Of a DNA stretch of 64,000 bases, positions 5,506-37,390 are shown piece by piece. The DNA is from Astropecten irregularis (Eukaryota > Echinodermata > Asteroidea > Paxillosida > Astropectinidae). Under the pieces are notes generated by a model that was not told the origin of the DNA, ran no database searches, and was given only the letters and a program-made list of their open reading frames with translations. The translations under genes were made by a program, and so were the position numbers. The stretch covers positions 21,249,217 to 21,313,216 of the forward strand of contig OZ020246.1 in NCBI GenBank assembly GCA_963971285.1, read 5' to 3'. Every line of letters begins with the position of its first letter. The first letter of the stretch is position 1.

Positions 5506-5591
5506 TTACGCGCTCTGCTCGGTCTCATCGGTATCAAAGTAGCTGGTCGGTGCAACCTCCAATAACAGCTGAAAAAACACGGTGATGTGCT
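5506..5591 (-). CDS. SLC7A9-like: Exon 12: C-terminal tail and stop
   Basis: It has 27 codons and TAA. After a split lysine it codes [16 protein letters not shown] and then an acidic tail [11 protein letters not shown]. Human b0,+AT ends [21 protein letters not shown], so both alignment and phase support this exon. The acceptor chosen is ATCCTTGCAG (ending at 5592). A second AG 21 bases further in would put the tail out of phase with exon 11. The family's VVPP is VAPT here. The 3' UTR runs toward lower coordinates; its end is not determined. Confidence 0.9.
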
Positions 5592-8500
5592 CTGCAAGGA
5601 TTGCAATTTAACAAAGAAGTCAATTAGTGTAAGTCTTTAACGATGCAAGTAATAAACGATGCAAGTAATAAACTGCTGCAAGTATTAAACTGCTGCAAAC
5701 TGCCCATCAACCAAAATATTGGCTAAATCATCAAATAACCACACGGGAAACTGACTAAATTTTAAGTCATTGAAAAGTGAACAAAGAAAATTGACTCAGT
5801 AGAGCGGGATTCAAACCAGCAGTCGCTGGAATACCGTACTGGCATTCCACCAACTGAGCTATCCAGGCCTATGTTGGTGGTGCCCTAATAGTCAATCATT
5901 GTTATCTTTGTTCGTTTGGCAGTCAGAAGCCACGAACTATGCACATACCACTAGCGGGAATCACTGATTCGAATCCCACTCCAGTCAATTTTGCTTCGTT
6001 CACTTTTCAATGACTAGTAATAAAGTGAAGTAATAAACGATGCAAGTAATAAACGGCTGCAAACTGCCCATCACCCAAAATATTGACCTGAAATTTATCA
6101 AATGCTTGGAGTAAAAAGGGCCTGATGTTTCAATCCTAGCAGGATTTAGTCTTTGAGAAATGATCGAAACGTTAAGCCCACCGCACATTATACGATCCGA
6201 CATTCCGACTAGGACCCGACTGGTTTTTTGGAAGGATCGCAAAGCATTCTGGGAGTCTTAACGGTGATTGTTCCCAGTCGCAGACCCACTCTGATTGCCA
6301 GTCAGCAAGATTCGACTGTCGAATCACGGTTAAGACTCCCAGAATGCTTTGCGATCCATCCAAAAACCAGTCGGGTCGTAGTCGGATCGTATAGTGTGCG
6401 GTGGGCTTTAGGCCCTCCTTACTCCAAAGAAGTGAATTCGAACAGAAATTGGGTGTTTGGGTGCTTACATATCAAGATAACCATCAATACAACATCCTTT
6501 CAATACTTCATTAGACAAATTTGTAGACATATTTTGTTTGTAAGTTTGACTCACGGTTCACCTAAAACAAAAGAAACTGAAAATGGCCAGAACTTACTCA
6601 TGAAAGGTGGTTCGTACTTGTAGTGGACAAACGGAACGTAGAAGAGGAGACCAGCCAAGATGAAGAGGAACGCAAAGAGGTACTCTAGAGCAGGCTGGTC
6701 AATGATTGGGGCCACAACCAGATAAACCGATGCCAACAGGACAATAATGGGGATCACAATGGGTACCTGAGGAGGGGAGTCAAGACACCAGACCATAAAA
6801 ATGATGTCACATAGGTCTAATTAAAAACCACAGCAATTACTGTATTTGCTAATACACTGTAGACAAGAATCAATGGGAGACTTGTGAGAACTGGTCTTCA
6901 AGTCAACAGCGCATACACACGCACAACAGCGCAGGCGCAAAACAATGAGCGCATGCTCACAATTGCGTGCACTTGCGCTGTTGACTTGAAGACCGGTTCT
7001 CAAAAGTCTCCCATTACCCACAAAATATTGGTGCAATCACCGACCCATGCTTGGGACAATTTCCTGAGATTTACATTACAAGTTTGGTTACTACCAATCA
7101 GATATAGCCTACTCTTTCAAAATCACGCACAACCAGAGGAAGTACGCACAAGTGGCCATTTTAGTAAGCAAAATGTACTGTATTCATTTGGTGTGTGATT
7201 CTGGCCAAATAAATAACAATAATAAGCCTTAATCATGATAATAATTGTTCGGGTGAAATATTCGTCCTACAACAATTGAATCCGATGTTAAATAACACCC
7301 GAAACAGCTCCGTTGCTTACTAAAATGGCGGCCAAATTATACATCACTTTTTGGGCTGAGTAGAATATCTTGCATCACAATCGGCGTTATACTATCTTCG
7401 CTACCAACCTTAATAGGACGATGCCACTCTGGGTGCTTGTAACGCAGTACAAGCAGGGCTGTCACTGTGCCGCCGTAGAACAACCAGGCGGCGAAACTGA
7501 AGTAGTTGACCAGGGTCTCAAAGTCACCAGGCAGCAACATCAGGATGGCAATGAAGGACTGTGACAAGAGAGCAAACAAAGGGGAAACAAATCAAGAAAG
7601 ATTTGAGGCTTTGTATGGTGACAATTGGTATGTGCCGATCGGTTTGCAGAAACACCATGTAAGAATCGTTCGTACTTTCGCACTTCTATATCATTTGCAC
7701 TTCTCGTAAGGTCTCAACGTTTCGACTAGCCTGCTCTAGTCCTCATCAGGGAAAGAAATCATCAAGATAAACTAGTGGGTAATACATCGGCCATCTGAAC
7801 TAGTAACATTTTGGTGTCCCCATCATTCCATTAAGATTTATGTTTTACTATCACAGGCAAAATGTAAGAGCTGGTTCTGAGTGTAAAAAGCAACAGAGTG
7901 ACACAACTTTAAAGCCCACAACTTGCATAAACAGAGCGTCTCAAAAAAATTTCACACTCTTGAAATGGCTGCCAAATAAAAAAATATGATTCTGGGGGGG
8001 GGGAAGTTTATATGTCTCATACTCTCATCTTTCATACAACACCAAAATGTCCAGAAATAATTCATGTCTGGGTGAGCACGGCTCACTTTTTTAAAGGTTT
8101 AGAAATTAGGTTGCTACACACTGTAGAGCCGTTGCCAAGCAGCCATCAGGATGCACTGTTTTCTAAAAAGTGGGCACCAGATGGGACTGAAATTTTTGAT
8201 ATCTTTGATATCTTGATATCTGTACTTCTTTGACAAGTATGAGGTTACCTATAATGAAGGGGAGACCTGTGAGTGGTAACGGAATGAGCTAAATATGGCT
8301 ATCTATAAATACCTGGAAAACCAGCGCAGGGAAGGGCGTGTACCGCTTGACGTGTACCATCGACAGGATCTCCACCATGTGACCCTCACGGGCAGCTACA
8401 AACGTCAGTCTGAACATCCAAGAGATCGCCAGACAAACGCAGAAAGTGTGAGAGAGGATTAGACAAGGAGTTGGAAAACAGCAATCGGCAGAGCAGCTTA

Positions 8501-11500: not shown

Positions 11501-14500
11501 AAGCCCGGCGTGGACAGTGGCCTGTTGCACTGAAGGCTGCTGGTCCGGCCTGCAAGTGAGTGAGTCCACAGAGCAGCTTCTTTCGATAACATCACCATCG
11601 TCCATCGCAAGATCTCACTAGAATCAATTCCACCAACTTACTACCACATACTTCCCTCGGCCAACACTTTGTTTAATTTTGCAGAGGGGAGGGGAGAGAG
11701 GGAAAAGACCAAAAGCGAGTTTGATTACCTTCCGGCAGTGAAGAGGGATCCGTTGGCTGCGCCAAATGTGGAACAGCAAACAAAAAGTGGAATGAGCCAT
11801 GCCATGGGTCCCAGGGTACGCTCAGCGAGGGTCTACAAGACAAGACAGGTGTGTTGGACGCGACACCGTGACATTCAGACAAGGGCAATTTATGCACACA
11901 GAGCTTCTTTCGTCTATTTGCTCTTTTGTTTCCCGAAACGGGAAGAACATTGGCAACAAATATTTACTTCCTTGATAAATTGCACTGGATCTCTGAGTCT
12001 CAATTTTTTTAACGTCAATTCAGAATTCTTTTCCAATACCCAGGAGTGTGTATGTAACAATGGTGAGGATAGGGGGTGTAGGACTGCGAGGATGGTTCTG
12101 GGTGGTTTACACCGGCAAGTACATTGTCCTGTACTCAAATTAGGACCGCCTGAGAACAATCTGAAAACTCCTTGGGGAAATGTGCATGTTTTCTTTTCTA
12201 ATCAGCATTCACATTTTGGAAGTTTGTTTTTGTTGGGGGGGGGGGGGGGGTGGAAGGAGTCCTTTTCATGAACAAGTTCCTTAATTGTAACATTCCAACT
12301 TAAAAAAATATTTTTTGGACTTTTTCACATCCCAATTGATGTCCTTTGTGATTAATAGGCATGATGGTCAAAAAGGCCAAACAGTGGTTTAAAACGGACT
12401 AAAGATTTTTCTTGATTAACAGAAATCCGTATGGGAATAAAATTCAATGGGTGAAAAAAGCACACTCAGGATCATAGTTTAACTGCAAGAATGCCCCATC
12501 ATTAAAAAAAAACACCTACTCTACAAAATGATTACTTCCTGAGTCTATAGTTAGGTCGTCATTTATTTCAGATCCAGTGCAATTTATCAAAGCCAAGCAA
12601 ACAGGAAGGAAAAACCATGAAACAGACGACAAAGTCAATGTCCCGGAAACCCAAAAAGTTAGTTGAGCATGAGCGAACAGAAACCACACTTCATAAACAT
12701 GAAAGCAAGCAAAACATGAAAGACCATGTTAATACAAATCATAATGATACACACAGTGAACTGATGCGAGCAAAACACACAATGAAAGCGCTGCAAACAT
12801 CAATGATGAAAAATTGCAAAATGAAAAAAAAATGGAGACAAAAAAATAACCACCACACCAAAAAGACACCATGGTCTGACTCTATAGTCGGTTTTGGGAG
12901 AGTTTTGAAAAAAAATTCTTGTTTTGAGTTACGGGTGCCCAAATATCAAAAGATCAACTAGATCATCTGTTTTCTATAACGATGAATACAATCAAAACAG
13001 CATGATAAAATTAAGAATGATCCCAAAAGGAATTGGTTGAGTTAATCCAGACAAGGCAAGAGTAATGCCAGATCAGATCCTCAGTTGCCTCAGATCATTT
13101 CAGTCCATGGTGACCCTTAGGTGTGCTGATTTCGTTTTTTGTCAAGGGTAGGTAGGGAGGTTGTCCTGTCAAGACTCGGAGCGAGCACAGAGAGGGAAAG
13201 AGAGAGAGAGGGAGTGCACTGATACCTTCCGGCAGTGAAACAGGTGCCGTTGGCGGCACCGAACGTGGAGCAGGCGACTGCGACCGGCATGAGCCACGAC
13301 ATAACACCTAGGGTACGGTCAGCAAAGGTCTGCTCGTTGGAAGAGGATGAGATTAAGACCCCACCCACCGAGAGACGTCATGCAAGAAGAGAGAGAGTCC
13401 GATAGGAGGAGATAAGACAGAAGAAGGAAAGGAAATAGGGGGAGGTATAAAGAAAAGGAGGGAAAACGATGAAAAACGAAAAGAAAAACAGTTTTTAAGG
13501 GAAATTCCGTGGTGACTGGCATGACAAGTGATCCTTCGTTGATGGTGAGCGGAAAGCTTGCCCTGACCTGGCTCTGGTTTAGGGGTTGTACAATGTATAG
13601 CCTTGTTATTAGGGGCACACAAGTATTCCCACTTCGAATTTGCAATTGCATTTTACACAGCAGGAAATAACATATTTTAACTGCATTTTTGTGTGCCATC
13701 ATGTGCAATGCACGCTATTGGTGCAAAAACTCAATATTAAGTATGGCTGAAGCTCAGGCCCTTCAATGGCCTCGGTATAGAACTTGTGCAAAGACACACT
13801 GTAGCAGTATTCCATAATGACAATGTCAAAATACAGCAACTGACTGCATTAAGTGGCAAGAACTGCGACAACGACTCGTTGGGCAAGAAGCATGGTGCAA
13901 CAAAGCACTTCTGCTGGAGCTCTCTAGTCTCTACACCAGTTTTGGGCAGGGCTTAGGGGAGCAAGAGTTGATTTGACGAAGCCCTACGATCGATCTGAAC
14001 TCAAGTTACGAAGGATAACCCATCATATCCTATGTAGGGCTGAAATGCCTCATACATCCTATGATTGATAGAAAGTTACGATGGGTTAGGTGAAATCAAC
14101 GCCAGGACTACTAGTGAATGGGGTCAAAGGTTGAGTCAGAATTAGGCTTCCCTCCCAGAGGATCACATGTCATACCAGTCTTTGTGGAATTACCTGGGAA
14201 GAAAAATGATCAAATGTTAATAATCAGTCATGACCTACTGTCTTGTGACCTGCGACACAAGTATTATCTAGATGGAACTATTCAATCTGTGGTATTGTAG
14301 CTATATGCCATGATCCCGGAGGTCAATCAACTGAATAGTGCAACAGCAATGGGAGATGTTTCAAGCTCTAGTTGGCAGTAAATGCTTATCTCCGTTACTA
14401 CGGAATCTCGATGGAGAAAAGAGAAGTTCATCATTTGGCAGCCAAAGATTTTCACAATATCAGGGGCTTCGGTTCACAGCCCTAATAACCAACATTTGTT

Positions 14501-17500
14501 TGCCGTAAATAACACGTGGTAACATGCTGTTCTAAACTGCCTCTATTGTGTCAAACATCTCCGACCTCTGTAAGGCAAACTCAAAGTATGCGTAAAGTTG
14601 CAGCAGTTAATTTCATCATCTTCTACCATCAAGTCCTCATTCAACTCCTGAATGGTTTTAAAAGGAAACCACCCTATATATAGCCTTGAGAGTTTTACAT
14701 CACTCAAGGAAATATCAACAGAAGATTGAAGATGGCCTGTCTGTAAGTTTATCAAATTTGGGCCGGGTGAAAATCATAATCCGTTCATTAGCTATTAAAC
14801 TTTATACTGAGATTCTGAAAGTTTGTAAACTTCAAGTTCTCAACTTTTCAAAGACCAGGGGTCGATTTCACGAAGCCCTACAATCGATCGTATCTCGAGT
14901 TACGAAGGATAACCCATCGTATCCTACGCCTATTGCAATGCTTCATATGTCATATACAATTGATAGTAAGTTACGATAAGTTTGGTGAAATCGACCCTAG
15001 GAAAGTAAGCAAAAGCATGATTTAACCCCAAATCCAACAAAAATACAGACAGTATGTATACAAGTTCTTAAATCATGTCAGAGCATTGTTGATTTCAGCA
15101 TAAAATATTAATGTTAAAAAACAAAATCGAAATGACAAATTTAAAACTTTGAAAAACAATATACAAATCAAAGGTGCGCAAATGTGCAGATCTACTCTTT
15201 GGAACGGAAATTACTGAGTGATTATCGTGCCGTGAAAGTTTTGCATTCGAACTGTGATTAAGAAATGAAACTAAAAATGTGTACAAGAAAACACAGCACA
15301 AATGATGTGATGTGAGTTTCAGGGCCATAGCACACTCGATCAAAGTCATTTAAAAAATAATTTCAAAAATAGGAAATAATGACAAGAAGGAAAAAAGAAA
15401 GTTCACCCAAGAAATGGAGAAAAACAAATAATACAGTATTATTTTCAGATGTACTGAGTTCCATCTTCTAAATTCTGAGAAAAAAATCAGAAAACCACAC
15501 GGAATACAGACACAAAAACAGACAAAGACAGATAATAAGTAATAAAACTCGCACAACAATGAGGAACCCAACGTAAATATTTGAGCATGATATTTGTCAG
15601 GAGTTGTGCTTGGTAGTTCCCATCCACCAACCAGAACATGATCCCAAAACCTCTACCCTTGTAGAAAATTAAACTATGGATTATTTCCCCCAAAGTCCCT
15701 GTTTCTGTTAGAATTCCGACACCCTTTAAATTAACTGGAATCCCCAAAATTACAAGCTTTTCAAACATGAACAGGATTTGTCCGTGGACAGTAGCACCCA
15801 CATTAATTAACCTTTAAATCCCAAATCTGCATATAATTGTAGGTTTTTGGAGAATGAAGCCCTGGCCTGTTTGTTTCAGGCAAGTGTGATTAGTGATCCT
15901 GCTGATCCGGATCCCATTTAGCATATCCTGCATGGGATGGGGAGCAGCGTTTGGGAGCAGGATCACTGATGATCACATTCCTGAAACAAACAGGCCCCTA
16001 GTATGACCCTGGCACAGTATGAATGTTATTTGCAATTAAACCCAAATTGTCCAAGGTCTAAGGAATAAGCCACAATGAAGGGTGTTGGATTTTGGTGGAT
16101 ACAGGACATCTCTTTATCCCAAATGTCTTATGGGGTTAGGTTTAAATACCACCGACCAATCCATTAAGCTCCGCCCCCTCCCACTATGTTCCCGTCCTTT
16201 CACAGCCGTATAGCTCATATCCAATTAACAGACTGAAGTCTGATATGCCAGCATGGAATGCGTGACACAAATATTCGGTACGGTATGGTATTGGTGAGAA
16301 ACAGCTAGTATTCATTACCCACGCGTGCAGTGAGTAGCCCGAGTATATCACCCGTTCTACTCTGTGCCACACTATGTACGAACGTCTGATACATGCACGC
16401 ATGCCAATTTTATGCAATGCGGCACATCAGCCAATCAGATCTGTTTTGAGAACATTTCTGTCAGGATCGTGGCAGAATTGGTAAAAACCAAGAGGTCAGT
16501 GCTGGGTTGGCTTGCATAATTAATCAGGAAATCTGCACACATGTGATAGACGCTCGCTCGCTGTATGGTGAGTGCGGGGCTCACCGGATCAGTCTATGCG
16601 ATTATTCAGAGAAAGACATACATGTACACACACAGACAAGAAGAAACCGGATACCGACAGTGATAGAAAAGGAAGAGGGTTCAAGACCAAAGTGCCAATG
16701 CCATACCACTGCAACGGCGCCAGACTGTAGCAACTCCTCCGGCGACATGACGGTGAAATATGCGATGTTGACCAGCAGATACAGAACGGTTACCAGCGGG
16801 ATACCGATGATAATGGCCAAGGGTAAATTTCTATACGAATAGAGAAATGAAACCAGAAGTGAACAAAGATAAGAAAAAAAACCACCATTTTATTTTGTGC
16901 TGTCACCATTGACCACAATTTCTCCAATATCAAAATTGAAGAATCTGGGCCGGGTCGCTTTCACGAAGCCCTACGACTGATCGTAACTTGAGTTGCGAAG
17001 GATAACCAATCGTATCCTACGTAGGGCTGCAATGTATCATCCTGAGACTGATAGTATTAAAGTTACGATGAGTTTGTGAAATCGATCCCTGATCTGGCAA
17101 CTCACTGTCAGCGTTCATAGCCAGGGCGGGGGCCATCCCGCACGCACGCTTTGGCTGCTCATATGATATCTAACAACAGGGGCCCATTTCACGGCCCTGC
17201 TAAGCACAAAAATTCACTAAGCATGACATTTCTGTCTTAATAAAAACAGGGTTAACAACCAAATTTTCATGTGTTGCGTATCGCAATTGTGATTGTTCTT
17301 TGTCTGTTGTTTGGGGAAAGATTCGCTGACCATGAATATGTATAAAATGAAATTTTCAACGATGGTTTGTTTTATTGGGCAAGACATTTTTGTGCTAAGC
17401 AAATTTTTGTGCTTAGCAGCTCCATGAAATTGGCCCCAGGTAACTTGAATGTTGATCTGAGTCTATGTGACGGCCCCCTAGTATGGCAGCCCCTACTAGT

Positions 17501-20500
17501 ACAAGTCAATAACTGGAGACCAGTGCCTACAGACTTTGTCATTCATCACAAGAGGGCGCTGTACAGATTGTCTGGGGGTTGCAGCAAAACATTGCACAAA
17601 TCTCACAATCAATGTACATGTACTTTAATACTGATAATGAAATGTATCTACAAATAGATTTTATTAAAATCCATTCAAAGAATACCGAGAAATTTTGATA
17701 TTTTGGACATAAAGCTTTAATGCTGTGTGAAAATGATATCAAAACAGCGCCCTCATCGGTTTAAAAACTTTAAAAGCCTATCAGGTAATGATCTGTGAGG
17801 TATTTTAGGGCCAATTTCACGGCGCTGCTTAGCACAAAAAATTGCTAAGCATGACATTTCTGTCTTAATAAAAACAGGGTTAACAACCAAATTTCCATGT
17901 GTTGCGTATCGCTTGTGATTGTTCTTTTGCTGTTGTTCACTGATCATGGATATGAAATGGAATTTGTAATGGTGGTTTGTTTTATTTAGCAAGACATTTT
18001 TGTGCTAAGCAAAATGTTGTGCTTAGCAGCCCCATGAAATTGGCACCTGCTATATTTTATCTTGTACATAGTGGTATTTCTGCTTCAGGAGTGTTTTACA
18101 ATACTGACCTGTACGGATTGATCAATTCCTCTGTGATGTAGTTCAGCTGATTCCTGTTATTCAAGTAAAATAAAAATTAAATTTTAATTTAGTAATAATA
18201 GGTTCATTTTGCAATTTCTGCCATAAATGCCTTACATTGGCAGACCAAAGAGCTCATTTAGTGCAGACCCCTGAACAGGCTGGTAGCCCCTTGGAATCAA
18301 GTTGGAAGCCCATGAGACTCAGCTTAGCCACACCTGGGACTCAGGATGGAAGCCCCAGATCTCAAGTTGGTGGACGCTGCAACTAAAATTCTAGACCCAA
18401 GCCAACTACAATTAGGAGATATAGGCCCTAACTCACCAGCCATCGTAAGCCCACAGACCCTGGTAGAATGCAATGCCATAGGCAAAGACATTGACGGTGG
18501 AGCCCTCAAATGAAACAGAAGGTGATAAGTAGCGGGTATTGCCTGCAAAGAAAGACAGAGGAAAAACACAGAGAGATAATAACCACTCAAATCATTAGCC
18601 CAAGACTAACCTTTCCGGCTTTGCTCTGAACATAAGCCCCGTTGGCGTGTGTGTTTTACATACTGCATGTAACCAAGCTTCATCAAGGCTTTCATGGTCG
18701 CCTGATTTAAACGCGTCTTCCAATTGGTCAATGTGCACAGTTTGATTGACAGGTCGGAAGGGTCCATTCATCGGGAGATAAGCTCTAGGGTGGAACCTCC
18801 ATCATGTCCTCATCGTTGACCCTGGGTACTTCTCCAGAGCCTGCCAAATTGGCAACAAACTGAAACCAGCTCTGCCATTTCAGGAAGTGTTCTTTTCAAA
18901 GTACTCACCTTGGAACAGCTTGACAAAACCGATTATGATGATGATGACCAAAGCTATCAGCTTGGCCGCCGTGAAGAAATTCTGCACCGCGGTAGCCCAC
19001 TTCACACTAGCACAGTTGATGAACACAATGAGTACTGTAGAAACAGAGCAAAGAAATATTAGGGAAAGACAGTGGGGATAGAACAAGACAAGAATGCAAG
19101 ATAATGAGTCAGACCTGGAATTTCACTAGAGGCCACAAGAGGCTTTGGCCTTAAAGGCCATGGCCTTAGTGGCCGATTGATCCCTCTTAAAACATCTGCT
19201 TTGGCTTCTACTCCAGAACAATTTTACACATCCATTTTAAAGTCAAAGGTAACAGAGGCTCCAAACGAATGGAGCCCCGCCTTTAGCCATTAGCAAATAA
19301 TATGACCATTCATTACAGCTTTTGGATAATGGAGATTAGGCTGAAGCCAGAGCCAACATTTGAAAAAAGTCCCACAGACACTTTGTTTGTTTGTTTCACA
19401 CGGATCTGGATGTCAGCAACTAAATTCCTTGAACCAATGAAGTAAGTTTTCTTTTGTGGGTTTATTAGATGATTTCATAACCTTGCCAAGCCTAAGCAAT
19501 CCACATTTTCTTCAACTTAAAATCTGAAAAGCATGGATGAAAGACATCTTTCCATAAAATTCTGACAAAAACAAAGTGCTAAGTTTCAGACAAGAGCTTT
19601 TTCTCTTTGTAAATCCCCCACATTAGTGAGGTCAATCCATAACTGTCAACGGGGTTTCAGAACGTACACCTGTAGTTGTGTTATTATGCCGAGGGGTTTA
19701 CATATTTATAAGCATTGACAGATTTGCAGATTGTGTGAAAAGTCAGCCGTCTGCCAACAAACAAAATTCAGCCCAATCTTGAGAATGCCAACGAAGCACT
19801 TGAGTATTTTTTCTCCTTTCTTTTCATCTCATGATTTTTCTTTTGTTTGACTTAGAGGAAGTTGGACGGATAAATTTATACACATTCAAGTGGGTACTTG
19901 TCAGATCTGAGTTTTATATAGCAAACGTTTTTACAATTTTTTATTTTACTTCTGCTGTGGTCACTTCAGAAAAACAAACTCCTTGGCATATGTTTCAAGC
20001 TGTTAAGTGTAGTGGCGTGCATGAATGGATTCATAAGAATATCACCCCTCAACTGTGTGTTGGACAATTTTTTTGCACTGCTGACTTTTTCAGTTTAAAA
20101 AAAAATTGCGATTTCACAAGACAGAAAATATATATATGTCTGTGAGTCCTTTGCATTCTATACTTGAATTTTGAATTTGCTTCTTTGGGCAAAGAAAAAA
20201 TATCAGGTCGAACCGGGACTTGAAGTTAAGTACATATTTTGCTTGGAGAAAGGAAGGCCTGACATTTCGATCTTTTTAGCAGGACATTTTTCAAAGGCCA
20301 AAAATAGCCTTTGGGAAAAGTCCTGCTAGGATCAAAATGTCAGGCCCTCCTAACTCCAAGCATTTCATATATTTCAGGTTATTATTTTGGCTGATGAGCA
20401 GTGTGCAGCAGTTTATTTCTTGCATTAAATAAATATTTGTTTACTGTTTTTTTTTGTGAATGCAAGAGGGTTCTTTAATTCAAAAGGCAGATGCAGACAA

Positions 20501-23500
20501 GAATGGATATTTTTGTAGTATTAAAACTGAAAATATGACGTGACTACCATGAAACATGAGTCACAGACAACAGCAACACAGAGATAATGAACGCTGATCA
20601 TGAACAAAAATTAGTATGGTCATTTGAAATGATATAGACAAGTGAGACAAGGAATGAATATGGAATAAAGTCAGCCTGAGGACTTGTGTGATTTCACAGA
20701 CAAAATATTGTCCAATTTGTCCAATTTCCAGTGAAATAAGAGCATGAAAAAGTTAGGATTTTTCTTCTATTTTGGGAAGTTTTTTGGGGGACCCCACTTG
20801 TGAAATTTTCATCCAATTTGGTGCTTTGACGAGCGAAATCAACATAAATTATTGGGCCAATTTCAAAGAGCTGCTTAAGCACACCTTTATCAAACAGGAT
20901 TACCAACAAAATTTTCATGTGAGGTTTCCTGCTTTTGACTTGTATTCAGCCATTGTTTGCTGAGCATACCATTCACAAGGAGCTTTGGATGGAATAATGT
21001 TTTTATTTACCAAGCTCTTTGGTGCTTTAGCAAATTTTGGTGCTTAAGCAGCACAATGAAATTGGCACCAGATCACACGCCAAGTAAGACAAGTTATTGG
21101 TAACACACAAAAAAAGTTTCCTTAAGGAGAGGGCATTACTTACAGATGGCCAGAGTCGCGAACATCTTGACAGCGATTGTCGGCGGACCGCAGTCATTGC
21201 TAAAGAACGGCTCGGCCACGTAGGCCCCAAAGCTGAGTGCGATGATGGACAGACTGGATGGTTTGATGACCAGGGTGGATGTCCAGGAAAAGAGGTAGGC
21301 GGGAACGGGACCCAGGGCGAAGAGGTAGGCGTACTCTGCACCAGACTTGGGTATGACCGTGCCAAGTTCGGCATAGCATAACGCACCTGGTGGAGATGGA
21401 TGAAATGGACCGGATGGACGTGATTGGTGATGAGAGTGATATGTGTCAGAGTGAGAGTATGGGGTAATGAGGACTGATGCTCAACAAGGTATCAGTGCCA
21501 TGAAGATATTCCAGCATTATACTGTGTTGACTTGCGAGCTCAACCTTTAGAAATTGGTTCTCAAGTTCCAAGACGGGACTTTCATCTACCATTCCTCCTC
21601 GGAAGATGAGGAAGTTAAGGAAATTTGGATATGACAGGAGTCTGATCACTGACTCAATAGTGACATTCTCCATAGCTGATCAGGGGTCGATTTCAGGAGT
21701 AACTCGAGTTACGAAGGATAAACCATCGTATAGGCCCTAGGGGACCAATCTTACGTAGGACTGCAATGCATCATAAGTCCTACGATTGATAGTCAGTTAC
21801 AACGAGTTTAATGAAATCTACCCCAGAGCCTACAGATAAAAACTTCTAACAATGGGCCTGTTTGTTTTGCAGCGGAATTTGATCGTTATTATTTGATCTT
21901 GCCAATCCACATCGCAGGCAGGATATGCTAAAATGGGATCCGGAGCAGCTTTTGCGCGAAGGATCACTGATTGCGTGCCTGAAACAAACAGGCCCAATTT
22001 TCCGAAGACCCCCCCCACCCCCACTTCACAAATACATATACTGGGCACTGTAAACCTGAATACAGTACTCATGTTGAGCTCCGTAAATCTGCTGAATTTC
22101 ACAGACTTGGTCAGTGGAATTCTCCAAGCGGCACTGATTTCTTTAATGCATTGAAATATCCACCATAACATAACGAAGGATCATGTCCTTGACACAAATG
22201 TTGTCAAATATGTATACCGGTACAATGGGTTTAATAGTGATACCGACCAAACAGAAAATCTCCTTCAGAAAAAAAAAGAAAGAGAAAATCTGCAGAGTCA
22301 TCGGCTGAGAATCAAGTCTCTGAAAAATATGAGTCAAATGTCGCACAGTGTGTTTCTGAGACATGACCAAACAAACATGGAGGGAACTCATAGTAATACC
22401 AAAGATTCCAATTTTTGAAGTGGTACATATCGCCACAATTAATGCAGCATACTAAAGAAAACATATGCCACATTCACATTTCTTATAAAATAAGCTCTTT
22501 CTGTTTATAAAGAAAACTCATGTTTGTCACTTGTGGGACATGACTCATTTTGACAGAGCAGATCATGTACGTATACATATGAGCAAGTTCCTAAAGTGAC
22601 TATCTCTCAACCACTGGTCTTGTGCCTGGTACCCGTGGAACATTTGGTATACAGGTTACCAAGCAAAATCCATCAGTGATTGACAGATAGTCGCTGATCG
22701 AACTTGCTCAATGATACTAACCTGTGGATGGAAGGACAAAGAAAAACATATAATGAAAAGGGAGAAAGTTTGGTCTTGTTTGTGATTGACAGGCAGCCCT
22801 GGAAAGATGAGTGGCACCTCTGTCGCGTCGGATGATGATGATGGTGATGATGATGATGTCATACTGAATGACCAATGGCAGCCCCTCTAGGTCACCGTGG
22901 CACTGACCAACCACTCCTCGTCCATTTTCTACTCACGGATGCAGATGGCCGCAAACATCTTGGTGATCGCGGCGGGCTGTTCGCAGTCGTTGCCGAAGAA
23001 GGGCGTGACCACGTACTGGGCGAAGCTCAAGGCGATGATGGAGAGGGAAGAGGTCTTGATCATGAGGGTAGACACCCAGGCAAAGAGGAACCCCACCGGG
23101 TTACCCAGGGTATCCTTCAGGTAATAGTACTCCCCGCCCGATTTGGGTATCAGACAGCCGAGCTCAGCGTAGCATAGAGCGCCTTAGCAACAACCACAAT
23201 GACAACAACAACAACAAACAAAAGTGTGAAAATCAAAAATGCAAACAATTAATTGAGACAGATGTTACCCGACTTACATGTAAAACTACCGGTAATATAC
23301 AAATTCCTGAAGTGACATGACTGTGAACATACCAATACCAATGAGGTACGGCATATTACGATGACAATTTGATGCTGAGAACACGCCCTCGACCACCCAC
23401 GAGGTTAAGCGTACGCCGCCCGCCAGAGTGACCCGTTCCACATCCGCAGTGCACGGTACGGTGAGCACGAGGGACGCGGACCAACAGGATATAACAGGCA

Positions 23501-26500: not shown

Positions 26501-29500
26501 TCGTCCGAGCAATGTCATCGCCATCCCTGATACCCCTGCTCTCAACCCTCACTAAATCGTGCAGACTCATTTCCCATTTTCACCTTTCGTATCTTGCTGG
26601 TGCTCTTCTGGTGTTTTTTCAGCAAATGCTCCCCAAATTCCCTGTCATCTGCAGCCAAGAATCTTGATTTCCCAGTCTTTGTTCTGTTTCCGTTTCTTGT
26701 TCTTTGTTTATGATGAGATTAGGGGTATGACACAGAGGTTCAGGTGGACTGACTTGATTTATCCTACTTCCTAAGACTTTGAAAGCTCATAAACCATTCT
26801 CCAAACCTAAAAAGCAGATACCTATTTAATAACATGAAAGGGATGGTTTTGGTGACACCAAATATAACTCTTAAATAAATGCAATACAAGTAATAAACTG
26901 CTGCAAACTGCTCATCAGCCAAAATAATGACCTGAAATTTATAAAATACTTAGAGTTGGGAGGGCCTGAAGTGTTTTGATCCTAGCAGGATTTTTATAGC
27001 CTTCGATAAAGATTCTGCTAAGATTGAAACGTGTCAGGCCCTCCTAATCCCAAACATTTTAAAATAAATTGTGAGTATATGCTCTCCTGACTATGGACAG
27101 AGTATGCTGTTTCGAAACTTTGAGTCTAATCGGTTCTCTTCAGAACCACACATACTCACAAAAGAGTTATATACATTATGTCACCATAAACCATCCCTGT
27201 CATGCACCTTCACCACGAACAGCCTGAAATCTCACTAGGTAACTCTTGATGTCTGCTCTACCTTCCTTCCAACGCAAACCCCAACTTTGAAATTTCAGCA
27301 ATAGATGAAAAAGCCGAAGCCTGAGCTCTAGCCTGAGCCGATGTTTCGAAAAAAAAAACACAGCCACAGCCCAAGAAACTGATGTCATCAAACTATCCAA
27401 TGTCGTCCACTGGCCTCCAAGCCACTCCAACCGGCATTCACCCTTCCCCTGCACCCGCAAGTGAACTCCAAATTCCCCAATCTCTAGTCACTACACATAA
27501 TGGATTATGCAAACACTGTCGACATGCCAAACGACATACAAGGCTCATTCAATATCGTACGCCCTCGGGGTCGGCCCAAGAGGGAGAGAGTCTGCATGCG
27601 CAGGATCCAATCAAAGTATCCGATGTCAAGTTCACCAGATCTATTTACCGGCTCTCCCCCCATCCCCATCCAAATCCAACGTCCCCCCTCCCTTCACATC
27701 ATAGATTATGACCCCTAGTCTTACCCATAGTGGACAGGACGCCGCACAGCACCCATACGATCAGGCTCATTCCGACGCTCTCCGTCTGGGTCAGGACGCC
27801 CTTGGGCGAGACGAAGATGCCAGATCCGATCATGGTGCCGACGATCAATGCGATGCCGCTTAACAGCCCTACCTGATAAACCCAGGAAAGAACCAGAGAG
27901 AACACGTGTAGAATTAGAATGGCAAAGCGATTCGATATGCGATCTCATTCCGTCAGGCATACATTTCCCTTTGAGATACAGAAAATTAGGGTAGCACTTT
28001 AAGACTAACTAGGAGAAAATCTACATTTATAAGGCTTCGTAGTAACAACTACTTCATCAGATGTAATGAAGTGGAGCATCATCAACATGAGTAGGTATAA
28101 AGCAATGAAGCATGTCACTTTGAGATACAGTAATATGTGGGTCGGAATCTTGAAAATGTTCTGATGAAATATGATTCGAATTCACTTTAATTGTTGTGAC
28201 ACACTTCATCGTTGATCACAGGGTGTTTACGAAACGGAGGTTTGGGCTCAGACTCAGGCTCCAGCTCTGACATCCATATGCAGAAAATATAGGTTGTGGT
28301 TTTTCACTGAAGCTGAAACTCTGTTTTCCTTTTCAAACCAGAAAAATCTACTTCAGAACCGCAGCCAAAAGCCTCTATTTTCATACCAGTTATTTCAGAA
28401 TGGATTCACGAAATGGAGATGGAGCCTGAGATGGATGGAGCCTGAGCCTCCGTTTCGTAAATGCCCATAGTCTACCGAAGGCTACTTTTGATCTTTTAAA
28501 AGATCAAACAGATTTTTGGTCGTTGTTTTTAATACTAATTTCTGGATAAATACACCATTTCCGGCTGAACAATTTTACAGGAAAGGTTTCTACCACCACC
28601 ATCTTCATACCCTGTAAGTTATAGGTAAATTTGTGAACATTTCTGTTTTTGCTTCTTACCAAAGTATGATACTACCTTTAAAGCAGCATTGAACGGCTTA
28701 GTAACATAGATTCTCAGCTGGATGTTTTGCTCATGAAACTCTTGCCGTATTTCATGAGGCGCCCCATTAAAATTGAATCTAGACTTGTATATACAATGTT
28801 TGCCATCCAAAGGTCTAGTGAATATGGATTCTTTCTCCTAGCCCCCAGCAAATGTACCACAAGGTTTTTCTGTTTTGTTTTTTTACCTGAGCTGGAATCT
28901 TGGCCAAAATTGGTTTTCCTCTCTCCGTGAGCGAATGGATAGGCGCCAGTAAGGGGAGAATTGCTAATTGCAAGAGCTTGACAAAGGTTTGCAAGGTTTT
29001 TCATGGACTATGGTTGTTGGCAAGGTATACGCATTTCCCCAAACCATTGCCAACTTAAACAAAGATTGCCCTGTAGGCCAGGGACGTAGTATTCCGAACA
29101 CTTGGTTACAAGATTATTATTGGTCGAGTCTTGAAGCGAACAAGATAAGAAAAATCCAAACCTACAGGTATTTCAGGCCAAATACTGGGGCATTTGGGCT
29201 ATTATTGAACAGGGAAATGTTTGAGTTATTTTGGTGTTTGAAGGGGCTTCTTTTAAAGATGTACTGCAACAGCCTTGTTTTCAAATTACTGGCAAATTTG
29301 AAAGCTCATATTCAAATAACCACAAGGGAAACTGACTGAATTTTAAGTAATTGAAAAGTGAACAAAGACAACTTGACTGGAGTGGGACTCGAACCAGCGA
29401 CATCCGAAATAGTGCTGGTACGGTATTCCAGAGGTCACTGGATCGAATCCCACTCCAGTCAATCTTTCTTTGTTCACTTTTCAATTAATTTAAAAGCTAT

Positions 29501-29950
29501 GAATATTTGAAATGTGATAATTCCCCATACCATCAAATGTTTAAAGAGAACTTGAGAAAAAACAACATCTAGTTTTCTAGAGGATATCTTTTTGAGGTAA
29601 TTTAGTGAAGCATTAGATTGTGTTTAATGGATAGCTGACCTATGGGATTCTTGAGCGTAAACTTTCCCACAATACATTTCTCATATACATGTACCTTCAT
29701 CACACACTTCCTGTCTATCGGCAAAACGCTCCTATGTACATGCGCTCACACGCAAAGAGCAATCCCTCTGCAATCGTTCCGAGACACACATCCTTACCTG
29801 TCTCTTCAACTGGACCCCTTTACCATCTCCCACTGAGATTCCGTCCCCTTCCAGAGGTACCTTCCTCTCCAGGGCCTCGGCACCGCCATTCCTGGTGGGC
29901 TCCGTCGTGTAGGAGCCCTTCTTACCGTCTCTCTCCCGTAATTCCGCCAT
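5506..29950 (-). CDS. SLC7A9-like: SLC7A9-like b0,+ amino-acid transporter, whole gene
   Basis: This is the light chain of a heteromeric amino-acid transporter. In vertebrates b0,+AT pairs with rBAT (SLC3A1) and exchanges cystine and dibasic amino acids for neutral ones at apical membranes. Twelve exon positions join with matching phases to about 516 residues; human b0,+AT has 487. Visible marks are GTMIGSGIF in TM1, [15 protein letters not shown] in TM6, [14 protein letters not shown] in TM7, NGTCFTAGR in TM8, [13 protein letters not shown] in TM10, and [15 protein letters not shown] then FVHYK in TM12. These fit b0,+AT better than LAT1/2, y+LAT or xCT. The aspartate of WAYDGW, which contacts cationic substrates in human b0,+AT, is kept. 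The extra length lies in the N-terminal tail. Exons 3 and 8 each exist as two alternative copies. No obvious poly(A) signal was found close below the stop codon. Confidence 0.93.
5640..5729. repeat. Family B foldback, partial
   Basis: Repeats of GATGCAAGTAATAAAC and CTGCTGCAAACTGCCCATCA, the end sequence of family B. It is cut by the tRNA-like element that starts at 5730. A second copy of the same end starts at 6017. Confidence 0.65.
5730..6016 (-). mobile_element. Family A tRNA-like foldback element
   Basis: It begins TCAAATAACCACACGGGAAA. An antisense tRNA-like unit (about 5794-5868) follows, then TGTTCGTTTGGCAGTCAGAAGC, and it ends with a second B-box-like GATTCGAATCCCACTCCAGTC and ACTTTTCAATGACT, the reverse complement of the left TCATTGAAAAGT. 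Diverged copy. Confidence 0.7.
6017..6430. mobile_element. Family B foldback hosting a nested MITE
   Basis: The left part has AAACGGCTGCAAACTGCCC and GGGCCTGATGTTTCAATCC. The right part resumes at 6408 with TTAGGCCCTCCTTACTCC. The element at 6175-6407 is inserted between the two parts. Confidence 0.65.
6175..6407. mobile_element. PIF/Harbinger-like palindromic MITE
   Basis: It has arms of about 100 bp. The left begins AGCCCACCGCACATTATACG and the right ends in its near reverse complement, CGTATAGTGTGCGGTGGGCT. The flanking TTA on both sides (6172-6174 and 6408-6410) fits the 3-bp target of PIF/Harbinger elements. GATCGCAAAGCATTCTGGGA recurs inverted in the core. Non-coding. Confidence 0.75.
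6598..6766 (-). CDS. SLC7A9-like: Exon 11: TM11 and TM12
   Basis: It is 169 nt (56 codons + 1). It codes [20 protein letters not shown] (TM11), then [20 protein letters not shown] (TM12) and [11 protein letters not shown]. Human b0,+AT has LAPII..P.WEYLY..LFILSGLLFY..FVHYK here. The acceptor is CCTCCTCAG and the donor ATGA|GTAAGT. Confidence 0.95.
6872..7015. mobile_element. Near-perfect foldback MITE in intron 10
   Basis: The 42-base arms start AATGGGAGACTTGTGAGAAC and return as GTTCTCAAAAGTCTCCCATT, with few mismatches. The centre is rich in GCGCA/TGCGC. It lies in the intron between exons 10 and 11 and would fold into a strong hairpin in the pre-mRNA. Confidence 0.8.
7409..7558 (-). CDS. 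SLC7A9-like: Exon 10: TM9 and TM10
   Basis: It is 150 nt, phase 0 at both ends. It codes [20 protein letters not shown], then [12 protein letters not shown] and [19 protein letters not shown]10 has the b0,+AT signature [13 protein letters not shown], and RPIK before the donor is the family end of TM10. The acceptor is CTTGTCACAG and the donor ATTAAG|GTTGGT. Confidence 0.95.
7719..7749 (-). other. Hammerhead-like core motif
   Basis: On the minus strand: CTGATGA, a 6-bp stem GACTAG/CTAGTC around a short loop, then GAAAC. These are the conserved core elements of a hammerhead ribozyme. Activity is not shown: the helix is offset by one base and I did not resolve helices I and III. Confidence 0.4.
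8313..8409 (-). CDS. SLC7A9-like: Exon 9: TM8-TM9 loop and start of TM9
   Basis: It is 97 nt (1 + 32 codons). It codes [20 protein letters not shown], then [18 protein letters not shown] and TP.PA are family motifs of the cytoplasmic TM8-TM9 loop. The acceptor is GATGTTCAG and the donor TTCCAG|GTATTT. The first base completes the arginine left by either copy of exon 8. Confidence 0.94.
8410..11321. other. Intron 9 side of the exon 8 pair
   Basis: Mostly unique AT-rich sequence. It contains a poly-C run near 10629 and an AATAAATAAATAAA-type low-complexity stretch near 11085-11160. An imperfect inverted repeat, CCTATCAGATTC/GAATCTGATAGG, spans about 10350-10420. No further exon was recognised. 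Confidence 0.5.
11322..11530. repeat. Minisatellite with ~38-40 bp unit
   Basis: Degenerate tandem copies of a unit reading GTCATTTGGTCTGAGGGTT and then GTGGATAGTG. About five units are visible, in the intron 200 bp downstream of exon 8-II. Confidence 0.75.
11729..11832 (-). CDS. SLC7A9-like: Exon 8-II: alternative TM8 exon, downstream copy
   Basis: It is 104 nt (34 codons + 2). The peptide opens [20 protein letters not shown] and ends [14 protein letters not shown]. The ending NGSLFT resembles LAT1/LAT2 light chains, whereas copy 8-I reads NGTCFT as in b0,+AT. The acceptor is TGTCTTGTCTTGTAG, a better pyrimidine tract than that of 8-I; the donor is GGAAG|GTAATC. It is open with good sites, so it is likely a functional alternative to 8-I. 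Confidence 0.92.
13226..13329 (-). CDS. SLC7A9-like: Exon 8-I: alternative TM8 exon, upstream copy
   Basis: It is 104 nt (34 codons + 2). The peptide opens [20 protein letters not shown] and ends [14 protein letters not shown], with an arginine completed by exon 9. The ending NGTCFTAGR is that of human b0,+AT. The acceptor is CAACGAGCAG and the donor GGAAG|GTATCA. The downstream copy at 11729-11832 has the same length and phase and about 71% identity by eye. Because 104 is not a multiple of three, using both or neither shifts the frame of the last four exons. Confidence 0.93.
13966..14103. mobile_element. Family D palindromic MITE
   Basis: From GTTGATTTGACGAAGCC to GGTGAAATCAACGCC, with the interior ACGATCGATC and CCTATGTAGGGCTG. 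It lies in the intron between exons 7 and 8-I. Confidence 0.75.
14858..14998. mobile_element. Family D palindromic MITE
   Basis: The ends are GGGGTCGATTTCACGAAGCC and GGTGAAATCGACCC, close to the family consensus. It lies in the same intron as the copy at 13966. Confidence 0.82.
15864..15996. mobile_element. Family I MITE (GGCCTGTTTGTTTCAGG ends)
   Basis: GGCCTGTTTGTTTCAGGCA returns as TCCTGAAACAAACAGGCC. The interior contains GGATCCCATTTAGCATATCC. A second copy is at 21854-21995. Confidence 0.78.
16707..16830 (-). CDS. SLC7A9-like: Exon 7: TM7
   Basis: It is 124 nt (1 + 41 codons). It codes [20 protein letters not shown], then [21 protein letters not shown]. The first half is almost identical to human b0,+AT TM7. 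The acceptor is TTCGTATAG. The donor is GCAGTG|GTATGG, a weaker match to consensus than most donors here; it sits directly before the alternative exon pair 8-I/8-II. Phase 0 out fits both copies. Confidence 0.94.
16952..17089. mobile_element. Family D palindromic MITE
   Basis: It begins GGGTCGCTTTCACGAAGCC and ends TTTGTGAAATCGATCC, with CCTACGTAGGGCTGCAATG inside. It lies in the intron between exons 6 and 7. Confidence 0.78.
17179..17437. mobile_element. Family C MITE (TGCTTAGCA type)
   Basis: The ends are GGGGCCCATTTCACGGCCC and GCAGCTCCATGAAATTGGCC. Sub-terminal TGCTAAGCACAAAAATT pairs with AAATTTTTGTGCTTAGCA. The interior has CAGGGTTAACAACCAAATTT. About 259 bp. Confidence 0.85.
17808..18047. 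mobile_element. Family C MITE, second copy in the same intron
   Basis: It has the same order and orientation as the copy at 17179, with the ends GGGCCAATTTCACGGCGC and GCCCCATGAAATTGGCACC. It sits only 60 bp below the exon 6 donor. Confidence 0.83.
18109..18153 (-). CDS. SLC7A9-like: Exon 6: 45-nt micro-exon, TM6-TM7 link
   Basis: It has 14 full codons ([14 protein letters not shown]) between split tryptophan and arginine codons. It is too short to stand out as an open frame, but it is fixed by phase on both sides and by the near-exact match to the family's [15 protein letters not shown]. The acceptor is AATAACAG and the donor TACAG|GTCAGT. Confidence 0.94.
18437..18542 (-). CDS. SLC7A9-like: Exon 5: TM5-TM6 loop and TM6
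   Basis: It is 106 nt (2 + 34 codons + 2). It codes [19 protein letters not shown], then TM6 with [13 protein letters not shown], ending inside the tryptophan codon of WAYDGW. TM6 is the second broken substrate helix; its aspartate (position 233 in human b0,+AT) and the flanking tryptophans are present. The acceptor is TTCTTTGCAG and the donor GGCTG|GTGAGT. Confidence 0.95.
18909..19034 (-). CDS. SLC7A9-like: Exon 4: TM4 end and TM5
   Basis: It is 126 nt (2 bases + 41 codons + 1 base). The peptide [17 protein letters not shown] followed by [19 protein letters not shown] and VKLFQ matches the TM4-TM5 part of light chains; human b0,+AT has VQNIFTAAKL at this place. The acceptor is TTTCTACAG and the donor CCAAG|GTGAGT. 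The run of isoleucine codons overlaps a short ATC/ATT-rich stretch. Confidence 0.95.
20241..20427. mobile_element. Family B foldback
   Basis: AGGCCTGACATTTCGATC and GGATCAAAATGTCAGGCCCT face each other. The right end has ATTATTTTGGCTGATGAGCA and GCAGCAGTTTATT. It lies in the intron between exons 3-II and 4. Confidence 0.7.
20854..21069. mobile_element. Family C MITE, TGCTTAAGCA subtype
   Basis: GGGCCAATTTCAAAGAGC at the left and GCAGCACAATGAAATTGGC at the right, with GCTTAAGCAC/GTGCTTAAGC inside. It ends 74 bp from the donor of exon 3-II. Confidence 0.8.
21144..21386 (-). CDS. SLC7A9-like: Exon 3-II: alternative TM3 exon, downstream copy
   Basis: It is 243 nt, phase 1 in and phase 1 out, 80 full codons. 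The peptide begins [20 protein letters not shown], then gives [20 protein letters not shown] (TM3) and FFSNDCGPP with the heavy-chain disulfide cysteine. It is the closer copy to human b0,+AT, which has GPIPAYLFSW and VIKPTS at the same places. The acceptor is CCACCAG and the donor CCATCT|GTAAGT. Copy 3-I lies 1,550 bp upstream in the direction of transcription. Both copies join exon 4 as I-L-LIVFINC. Including both would keep the frame but would add an extra helix. Confidence 0.93.
21683..21824. mobile_element. Family D MITE between the exon 3 copies
   Basis: GGGGTCGATTTCAGGAGTAA to TTTAATGAAATCTACCCC, with GTAGGACTGCAATGCATCA inside. It lies in the 1.55-kb intron that separates exons 3-I and 3-II. 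Confidence 0.78.
21854..21995. mobile_element. Family I MITE between the exon 3 copies
   Basis: GGGCCTGTTTGTTTTGCAG returns as GTGCCTGAAACAAACAGGCC. The interior GCAGGATATGCTAAAATGGG is roughly the reverse complement of that of the copy at 15864. Confidence 0.75.
22580..22710. mobile_element. Foldback remnant near exon 3-I
   Basis: TGAGCAAGTTCCTAAAGTGA and GACTATCTCTCAA are mirrored by TTGACAGATAGTCGC and TCGAACTTGCTCA. It lies about 230 bp below the donor of exon 3-I. Confidence 0.6.
22831..22858. repeat. GAT trinucleotide microsatellite
   Basis: GATGATGATGATGGTGATGA-type run just below exon 3-I in the intron. Confidence 0.85.
22937..23182 (-). CDS. SLC7A9-like: Exon 3-I: alternative TM3 exon, upstream copy
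   Basis: It is 246 nt, phase 1 in and phase 1 out, 81 full codons. The peptide begins [20 protein letters not shown], continues through TM3 ([18 protein letters not shown]), and holds the extracellular cysteine (FFGNDCEQP) that matches the heavy-chain disulfide cysteine of human b0,+AT. It is about 64% identical by eye to the downstream copy at 21144-21386. Oddities are one extra residue (LKDTLGNP), the family's IKP/IRP motif changed to IKT, and an AAG acceptor behind a G-interrupted pyrimidine tract, which suggests a weak, regulated site. The donor is CATCC|GTGAGT. It is fully open, so a pseudo-exon is unlikely. Confidence 0.9.
23526..23558 (+). other. Hammerhead-like core motif
   Basis: CTGATGA and GAAAC lie 21 bases apart, followed by GTCGC. 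The intervening sequence includes a GTTTCAG/CTGAAAC palindrome and not a clean helix II, so this may be only a relic. Confidence 0.25.
24279..24407. mobile_element. MITE with GGGTGCATTCGTTTGGCT ends
   Basis: The left end GGGTGCATTCGTTTGGCTCA mirrors the right end GAGCTAAACGAATGCGCCC; ACTAA occurs at or beside both borders. It lies in intron 2. Confidence 0.72.
24555..24794. mobile_element. hAT-like MITE (CAGGAGCAGATC ends)
   Basis: CAGGAGCAGATC at the left and GATCTGCCCCTG at the right, the CAGGGGCGGATC-type terminus common in hAT elements. The flanking 8-mers do not match convincingly. The interior has a pyrimidine-rich tract. Confidence 0.6.
24795..26885. other. Intron 2 sequence, no element named
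   Basis: Relatively GC-balanced sequence with many short open stretches on both strands. No domain or exon was recognised. It may contain old repeats too decayed to place. Confidence 0.4.
26886..27064. mobile_element. Family B foldback
   Basis: It begins CAAGTAATAAACTGCTGCAA, then GGGAGGGCCTGAAGTG, then GATCCTAGCAGGATT, and returns with ACGTGTCAGGCCCTCC. Confidence 0.75.
27725..27872 (-). CDS. SLC7A9-like: Exon 2: TM1 and most of TM2
   Basis: It is 148 nt, 49 codons plus one base (phase 0 in, phase 1 out). The peptide opens [20 protein letters not shown], the unwound TM1 segment that binds the substrate amino and carboxyl groups in this family. It then gives VSPKGVL and TM2, ending CGVLSTM plus the first base of a glycine codon. 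The acceptor is TTTATCAG and the donor ATGG|GTAAGA. It joins either copy of exon 3 to give [12 protein letters not shown], the conserved family junction. Confidence 0.95.
28034..28060 (-). other. Hammerhead-like core motif, variant
   Basis: On the minus strand: CTGATGA, then a stem GTAGT/ACTAC around TGTT, then GAAGC in place of GAAAC. One core base differs, so activity is doubtful. Confidence 0.3.
28221..28466. mobile_element. Family G MITE (GTTTACGAAACGGAG ends)
   Basis: GGGTGTTTACGAAACGGAGG returns as CCTCCGTTTCGTAAATGCCC. The interior has ATATAGGTTGTGGTTTTTCA and CCAAAAGCCTCTATTTTC. A sister copy is at 36276-36491. Confidence 0.82.
28490..28681. mobile_element. Family H element, one half
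   Basis: It shares CTGGATAAATACACCATTTC, then TCTACCACCACCATCTTCAT and the CTACCTTTAA end with the full copy at 55910-56272. Confidence 0.65.
29302..29511. mobile_element. Family A tRNA-like foldback element
   Basis: ATTCAAATAACCACAAGGGA, then AAAAGTGAACAAAGACAA, with two facing B-box-like sites (GACTCGAACC antisense near 29387 and GATCGAATCCC near 29442). It closes with CTTTGTTCACTTTTCAATTA. It lies in intron 1. Confidence 0.75.
29798..29950 (-). CDS. SLC7A9-like: Exon 1: start codon and cytoplasmic N-terminus
   Basis: It codes 51 residues from [14 protein letters not shown] to GVQLKRQ, hydrophilic and charged, as expected for the cytosolic tail before TM1. The start is chosen because a stop (TAA) lies in frame nine bases upstream and the context is GCCATGG, a strong Kozak match. 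The exon ends at CAG|GTAAGG in phase 0, and joining to exon 2 gives LKRQ-VGLLSG, like the human tail-to-TM1 junction. A possible splice acceptor (TTTTCTTGATGCAG) ends at 29983, so the 5' UTR may be split and the promoter may lie further upstream. Confidence 0.9.
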
Positions 29951-30070: not shown

Positions 30071-30350
30071 TCATCAAATAACCACAAGGGAAACTGACTG
30101 AATTTTTAAGTTGTTGAAAAGTGAACAAAGACAAGTTTACTGGAGCGGGATTCGAACCGGCGACTTCCTCAATACCGTACAGGGGCTCTACCAACTGAGC
30201 CATCCAGCCCTATGTTGTTGGATAATTGACTATTAGGGACACCACTAACGTAGGGCTGGATAGCTCAGTTGGTAGAGTGGCTGTATGGTATTCAGGAGGT
30301 TGCCGGTTCGAATTTCGCTCCAGTAAATTTTTCTTTGTTTACTTTTTAGT
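30071..30350. mobile_element. Family A foldback with two facing tRNA-like heads
   Basis: The left half, from TCATCAAATAACCACAAGGG, holds an antisense tRNA-like unit (30137-30209). The right half holds a sense unit (30254-30326) and ends TTTCTTTGTTTACTTTTTAG. The halves are near reverse complements around a short centre (GTTGGATAATTGACTATTAG). Confidence 0.82.
30254..30326 (+). repeat. tRNA-like sequence (pseudo)
   Basis: It folds as an acceptor stem (GGCTGGA with a TCCAGT-type 3' side), a D arm (GCTCAGTTGGTAGAG) and a T arm (GGTTCGAATTTC). The anticodon arm has no normal 7-base loop with T33. The unit recurs with the same flanks elsewhere, so it is a repeat head and not a working tRNA gene. 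Confidence 0.7.
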
Positions 30351-37345: not shown

Positions 37346-37390
37346 ATCAATACACCAAATTTTGTTGGAATAGCTCTCTCCGTTTTTATC

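Follow-up and report, generated by a model that had tools for sequence, protein, structure and literature searches.

The window analyzed here is a 64,000-nucleotide stretch of the Astropecten irregularis genome (assembly GCA_963971285.1, contig OZ020246.1, positions 21,249,217 to 21,313,216), and its minus strand carries a complete b0,+AT/SLC7A9-type light-chain gene with 12 exon positions between 29950 and 5506 (window coordinates). Exons 3 and 8 of this gene are each present twice. Judged from their sequence, the copies (3I/3II and 8I/8II) very probably form two independent pairs of mutually exclusive exons that arose by tandem duplication. Exon choice could give rise to up to four transporters; what is established is that all four combinations are open.

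Results

Two duplicated exon pairs in a b0,+AT-type gene

The translations of exons 3 and 8 were used in tblastn searches of the window, and each exon found its partner copy (E ~1e-28 for exon 3 and 3e-14 for exon 8). The two copies of exon 3 are 64% identical at the amino acid level and those of exon 8 are 71% identical. The other ten coding exons have no convincing second copy in the window by the same search (best E = 0.013). The best second match outside the pairs was obtained with exon 11 (35% identity over 48 residues, 33780-33643); it lies beyond the gene and was not counted as a copy. The single copies of the other exons indicate that the duplicated exons do not stem from a collapsed second gene. 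A sequence-only reading of this DNA had placed the four exons and called them open, spliceable and phase-matched. All four positions were exact, and the exons have AG/GT flanks and equal phases within each pair. Both pairs occupy the expected place between their flanking exons, every intron of the gene is GT-AG without exception, and each of the 3I/3II/8I/8II combinations translates into an open frame of 516 or 517 residues. Alignment of the intron flanks shows that coherent similarity is lost outside the exons, as expected of old duplications with synonymous divergences (dS) of 1.42 for exon 3 and 1.08 for exon 8. The positions of the exons and of their notable flanks are collected in Table 1.

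By sequence, the gene belongs to the light-chain family of heteromeric amino acid transporters and is of the b0,+AT (SLC7A9) type. The 3II_8I isoform was compared with solved structures, and the best match is human b0,+AT (E = 1e-181), in agreement with the identity first proposed. The bit scores are 608 for b0,+AT (6li9_B), 520 for an xCT consensus construct and 465 for LAT2, followed by LAT1, y+LAT, xCT and Asc-1. Alignment of this isoform with the human protein places AYDGWNQ at the positions of Asp233 and Asn236 in transmembrane helix (TM) 6, and both equivalents are present and encoded by single exons. These TM6 residues set the recognition of cationic substrates in b0,+AT (PMC9110406). 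The C-terminus has EVAPT at the position of human EVVPP, where a Val-Pro-Pro motif has been named for b0,+AT (PMC9110406).

Table 1. Exons of the b0,+AT-type gene and the flanking tracts of the alternative exons.
Feature	Position	Strand	Notes
Coding exon 1	29798..29950	-	ATG; cytoplasmic N-terminus, 51 aa; open reading frame ends ...VQLKRQ; strong donor
Exon 2 (TM1-TM2)	27725..27872	-	single copy
80 nt upstream of 3I	23183..23262	-	10 TGT triplets; matched by 0/1886 background windows
Exon 3I (alternative TM3/EL2 cysteine/TM4 start)	22937..23182	-	246 nt; open; AG/GT; phase 2 in, 1 out; weak UGU-rich acceptor
Exon 3II (alternative TM3/EL2 cysteine/TM4 start)	21144..21386	-	243 nt; open; AG/GT; phases as 3I
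Exon 4 (TM4-TM5)	18909..19034	-	opening two bases complete Leu after 3I (C/TA) or 3II (T/TA)
Exon 5 (TM6, AYDGW retained)	18437..18542	-	single copy
Exon 6 (NQLNYITEE)	18109..18153	-	
Exon 7 (TM7)	16707..16830	-	
80 nt upstream of 8I	13330..13409	-	CU-rich motif count 13; exceeds 1886/1886 background windows
Exon 8I (alternative TM8)	13226..13329	-	104 nt; open; AG/GT; CU-repeat tracts on either side
80 nt downstream of 8I	13146..13225	-	CU-rich motif count 12; exceeds 1886/1886 background windows
80 nt upstream of 8II	11833..11912	-	8 TGT triplets; matched by 6/1886 background windows
Exon 8II (alternative TM8)	11729..11832	-	104 nt; open; AG/GT; donor and acceptor stronger than 8I; UGU-rich upstream 80 nt
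Exon 9	8313..8409	-	
Exon 10 (TM9-TM10 region)	7409..7558	-	
Exon 11 (TM11-TM12)	6598..6766	-	
Exon 12 (C-terminus)	5506..5591	-	stop TAA; 16 residues align with human KPITMHLQMLMEVVPP
EL2, extracellular loop 2. Background windows are those of the intron comparison described under Splicing of the alternative exons.

Both copies of each pair are under purifying selection

The nonsynonymous divergence (dN) is 0.34 between the exon 3 copies and 0.22 between the exon 8 copies, which gives dN/dS ratios of ~0.24 and ~0.20. Differences at codon positions 1/2/3 number 25/21/42 in exon 3 and 8/4/18 in exon 8, third positions being the richest in both. Simulations in which one copy drifted neutrally after the duplication were compared with simulations in which both copies were constrained (3000 runs per setting). 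The median proportion of nonsynonymous differences (pN) with a neutral copy was 0.48-0.50 for exon 3 and 0.39-0.41 for exon 8, compared to observed values of 0.27 and 0.19, and the observed pN was reached in only 0-2 of the 3000 neutral-copy runs per setting. With both copies constrained (w = 0.1-0.2), it was reached in 66-100% of runs. These results establish purifying selection on both copies of each pair and rule out long-dead copies. The Pfam AA_permease_2 profile scores the 3I_8I isoform higher (237 bits) than 3II_8II (215 bits). Together with the Thr at position 122 of 3I that is common in prokaryotic relatives (below), this score makes the I copies unlike decaying exons.

Splicing of the alternative exons

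Inclusion of both exon 8 copies, or of neither, shifts the frame, which then runs into a premature stop in exon 9. Transcripts of this kind are expected to be degraded, which would help to enforce exclusivity. Two or zero copies of exon 3 keep the frame, and joint inclusion adds a second TM3 stretch. Either outcome would change the number of membrane helices and invert everything downstream, an argument that has been made for helix-coding exon pairs (PMC5740500). Exclusivity at exon 3 must then come from splicing control, as double inclusion and skipping are in frame but would alter the helices.

Splice-site scoring favors 3II and 8II within their pairs. The 3I acceptor (-0.4, at the 84th percentile of intronic AG) is the second-weakest of the gene, only that of exon 9 being lower, and the 8I donor is the weakest of the gene (3.8 bits, 89th percentile). 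The better sites suggest that 3II and 8II would be the default exons; human mutually exclusive exons often consist of one dominant and one regulated exon (PMC5740500). Motif counts in the 80-nt flanks were compared with 1886 intron background windows and revealed UGU-rich DNA upstream of 3I and 8II and CU-rich tracts on both sides of 8I. The 3I exon, with its weak UGU-rich acceptor, may be regulated by UGU-binding factors, which we take to be of the CELF/Bruno-like kind, and 8I, with its weak donor between CU tracts, may be regulated by factors that are presumably PTB-like. The presence of UGU-rich DNA upstream of both 3I and 8II suggests that one factor could couple both choices. U12-type splicing of 8I was weighed by eye and dropped.

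Several inverted repeats around the pairs resemble mobile-element palindromes. A 21-nt perfect inverted repeat lies in the intron between 8I and 8II (12570-12590 and 11972-11992), and its 15-nt core has no exact match in the window other than its own two arms. An 87-nt inverted repeat (26883-26969 and 20340-20426, 90% complementary) brackets the exon 3 pair, its arms lying 6.5 kb apart. Both arms are overlapped by smaller inverted repeats and look like two copies of a palindromic element; if paired, they would loop out both copies of exon 3. A minisatellite with units of ~33-35 nt and a GGTCATTTGGTCTGAGG-like core is located at 11283-11513, ~200 nt downstream of 8II.

Residues that differ between the copies

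With helix limits as assumed here, exon 3 takes in the last part of TM2, all of TM3, EL2 (whose cysteine aligns to C144) and the first part of TM4. The sequence-only reading had exon 3 swapping TM3. The exon does include this helix, but the swapped segment also takes in the heavy-chain cysteine of EL2 and the beginning of TM4. The copies differ at 30 alignment columns in exon 3 and at 10 in exon 8, and positions 142-158 (EL2 to the start of TM4, human numbering) carry 10 of the 30. The cysteine aligned to C144 is retained in both 3I and 3II. In b0,+AT, EL2 is disulfide-bonded to rBAT and TM4 packs against an rBAT helix, and a C144S mutant is described (PMC9110406).

TM3 and TM8 are inverted-repeat equivalents (PMC6472337, PMC8399266), which bears out the symmetry ascribed to them by the sequence-only reading. 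Both helices are part of the hash domain, and the side chains of substrates face TM3, TM6, TM8 and TM10 (PMC8399266). The constancy claimed for TM1 and TM6 also holds, their exons being single copy by tblastn. A rough count shows that exactly exons 3 and 8 are one of 45 internal exon pairs and that ~5 of the 45 (approximately one in nine) would be symmetry mates, so the TM3/TM8 symmetry of the duplicated exons may be coincidental.

The sequence-only interpretation is partly supported, and the pocket is one place where it needs correction. Three candidate pocket positions differ between the I and II copies: V119 (M/V), P122 (T/P) and T320 (T/S), the last of which we take to align with LAT1 S342 and AdiC W293. 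T123 (Ser in both copies) and I128 are alike between the copies, and the same T/S difference at 320 separates human from ovine b0,+AT. Relatives in prokaryotic genome contigs comprise 46 loci, all bacterial or archaeal, with best-segment identities of 26-50%; a scan of viral contigs gave no match. Across 43 prokaryotic relatives, Thr is the commonest residue at 122 (T 26, P 11), as in 3I; position 320 has T 31 and S 2, and position 119 has V 35, F 4, I 2 and A 2, with Met absent. A broken TM3 in 3I through P122T was set aside on the frequency of Thr at this position. These comparisons suggest that the I copies are working scaffold variants and that gross re-specification of the pocket is unlikely. 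Because few changes fall in the pocket and most lie in the rest of TM3, the loops and the start of TM4, a switch at exon 3 may act on heavy-chain contact and kinetics no less than on the choice of substrate.

Origin of the copies

The copies were compared column by column with human and ovine b0,+AT, LAT2 and the xCT consensus (six sequences). Eight columns in exon 3, including an Asn inserted before the EL2 cysteine, and four in exon 8 are shared by these copies alone. These shared residues favor duplication within the gene's own lineage. Identity to human b0,+AT is 63% for 3II and 49% for 3I, and the order is reversed for exon 8 (68% for 8I and 59% for 8II). The 3I copy retains the length of the relatives and 3II is one codon short.

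An origin of 3I and 8I as LAT2-like modules, acquired from an SLC7A8-type paralogue by exon shuffling or gene conversion so that the gene toggles between b0,+AT and LAT2 character, is very improbable. Against solved structures, 3I does score higher with LAT2 than with b0,+AT (71.7 versus 66.9 bits), as does 8I (37.2 versus 36.4), and the II copies prefer b0,+AT over LAT2 (87.7 versus 60.3 bits for 3II and 36.4 versus 30.8 for 8II); five residues of 3I and two of 8I are common with LAT2 alone among the six sequences. However, the diagnostic columns divide 11:11 between LAT2 and b0,+AT for 3I and 5:9 for 8I, and the copies share eight (exon 3) and four (exon 8) private residues, one of them an insertion. 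Forcing 3I to group with LAT2 costs 8.4 log units. The idea is thus not upheld by either set of columns, although the approximately unbiased test (p-AU = 0.105) falls short of formal rejection.

Function and alternative explanations

The swap would spare charge recognition by TM6 and backbone binding by TM1 and TM6, and it may tune affinity, turnover and the preference for cystine over cationic substrates, with exon 3 acting also at the heavy-chain interface; CAT2A/CAT2B and NKCC2 are the precedents. A tentative functional model, less likely than not, is a combinatorial carrier in which two coordinated switches exchange symmetry-related hash-domain helices, the moving bundle stays constant, and the isoforms differ in affinity, turnover or heavy-chain partner by tissue. 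As a variant of the main explanation, with the exons in use but for a different purpose, it is conceivable, if somewhat doubtful, that the switch chiefly affects assembly or the choice of heavy chain (rBAT-like or CD98hc-like) and not substrate handling. The rBAT contacts of EL2 and TM4, the clustering of exon 3 differences at 142-158 and the agreement of the copies at T123 and I128 all fit such a role. The cysteine is nevertheless kept in both copies, the C-terminal tail is common to all isoforms, and we know of no heavy-chain role for TM8.

Doubling of the exons by an assembly artefact that merged alleles or paralogues is exceedingly improbable. Nothing specific speaks for it, the sole run of N being 200 bases outside the gene (63197-63396). 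The copies are too divergent for alleles at dS >1, they lie where they should among the neighboring exons, their intron flanks now align poorly, and no convincing second copy of the other exons accompanies them. It is also improbable that each pair contains a dying exon, formerly constrained and now rarely or never spliced, so that the gene makes essentially one protein. The weak 3I acceptor and 8I donor and the fast evolution of 3I would fit this explanation. Stops, frame defects and splice-site defects are, however, absent from both copies, pN falls well short of what neutrality predicts, the family profile favors 3I_8I over 3II_8II, and exon 9, which is obligatory in every isoform, scores equally poorly at its acceptor.

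Several results weigh against two pairs of functional, mutually exclusive exons, or against parts of the regulation proposed for them. A neutral copy remained free of stops in 7-11% of the simulations for exon 3 and in 46-51% for exon 8; survival of this kind is common enough under neutrality that absent stops alone are weak evidence, and a copy that fell out of use recently would show few signs of it. The exon 3 tree unites 3I and 3II at just 74/77 support with branches of 0.94 (3I) and 0.03 (3II), 3I being much the faster. This weak tree rejects neither a group of 3II and mammalian b0,+AT that leaves out 3I (p-AU = 0.194) nor the grouping of 3I with LAT2. The evidence for the II copies as defaults is mixed, 8I being nearer than 8II to human b0,+AT. 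The flanking tracts were compared post hoc and the background windows overlap. Part of the DNA upstream of 3I is a TTG microsatellite. CU-rich DNA is likewise present upstream of exons 2, 4, 5, 7, 9 and 10 (98-99.8th percentile) and downstream of exon 7 (98th percentile); since ordinary acceptors of the gene are CU-rich, the tract downstream of 8I says more than the one upstream. The inverted repeats inspected (25 of 35 pairs in the exon 3 region and 19 of 19 in the exon 8 region) showed no clear docking/selector RNA structure or competing pairing.

Other features of the window

A histone 3'-UTR stem-loop was matched by Rfam at 27127-27172 (plus strand) in intron 2, with 38.8 bits against a gathering score of 34. 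A tblastn search of the window with four human histones gave no match better than E = 0.12. Six tRNA matches exceed the Rfam gathering score (30137-30209, 30254-30326, 31354-31426, 45909-45981, 52703-52775 and 53026-53098). Those at 30-31 kb fall within dispersed repeats, so some are probably tRNA-derived short interspersed elements. An open reading frame at 37094-37447 (plus strand) resembles by eye the end of a non-long-terminal-repeat retrotransposon reverse transcriptase and had no Pfam match at E 0.1. A Pfam scan of 10 of the 216 filtered open reading frames outside the gene gave no match at this threshold.

Discussion

Retuning of a carrier helix through alternative exons has precedents in CAT2A/CAT2B and NKCC2. 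The two alternative exons of SLC7A2 (CAT2A/CAT2B) are mutually exclusive, and the CATs are not known to have a heavy chain. Like the present gene, SLC7A2 is a member of the SLC7 family, and its alternative exons lie in the TM8-TM9 region (PMC7764698). Chimeras of CAT1 and CAT2 show that TM8c is critical for affinity (PMC13022406). SLC7A2 differs in belonging to the CAT branch and in having a single exon pair. To our knowledge, SLC7A2 has no alternative exon for TM3. NKCC2 (SLC12A1) has the APC-superfamily fold and differs as an ion cotransporter with one cluster of variants that affects TM2 instead of TM3 and TM8. Its exon 4 variants likewise retune a carrier helix (PMC6873903). Mammalian SLC7A9 (b0,+AT) is by sequence the same gene and has the EL2 cysteine and the TM6 Asp and Asn. 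An open-access literature search, mostly at the level of listings, found neither alternative TM3 or TM8 exons for SLC7A9 nor a LeuT-fold carrier with two such pairs. Many human genes have multiple clusters of mutually exclusive exons (PMC5740500), and no LeuT-fold carrier paired at two symmetry-related helices was found in the passages of that study covered here. Human proteins of the plasma membrane are enriched for tandem exon substitution, with ion-transport terms non-significant after removal of gene duplicates (PMC9741552).

If both switches are used, the gene would yield LeuT-fold carriers in a 2 x 2 design, distinguished solely by their TM3 and TM8 exons. Comparing them would test directly what the scaffold half contributes in a rocking-bundle transporter. 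The 30 and 10 naturally tolerated differences could be set beside positions affected in cystinuria, for example T123 in TM3. The gene would also be a second independent site in the SLC7 family, besides SLC7A2, at which splicing retunes the TM8 region.

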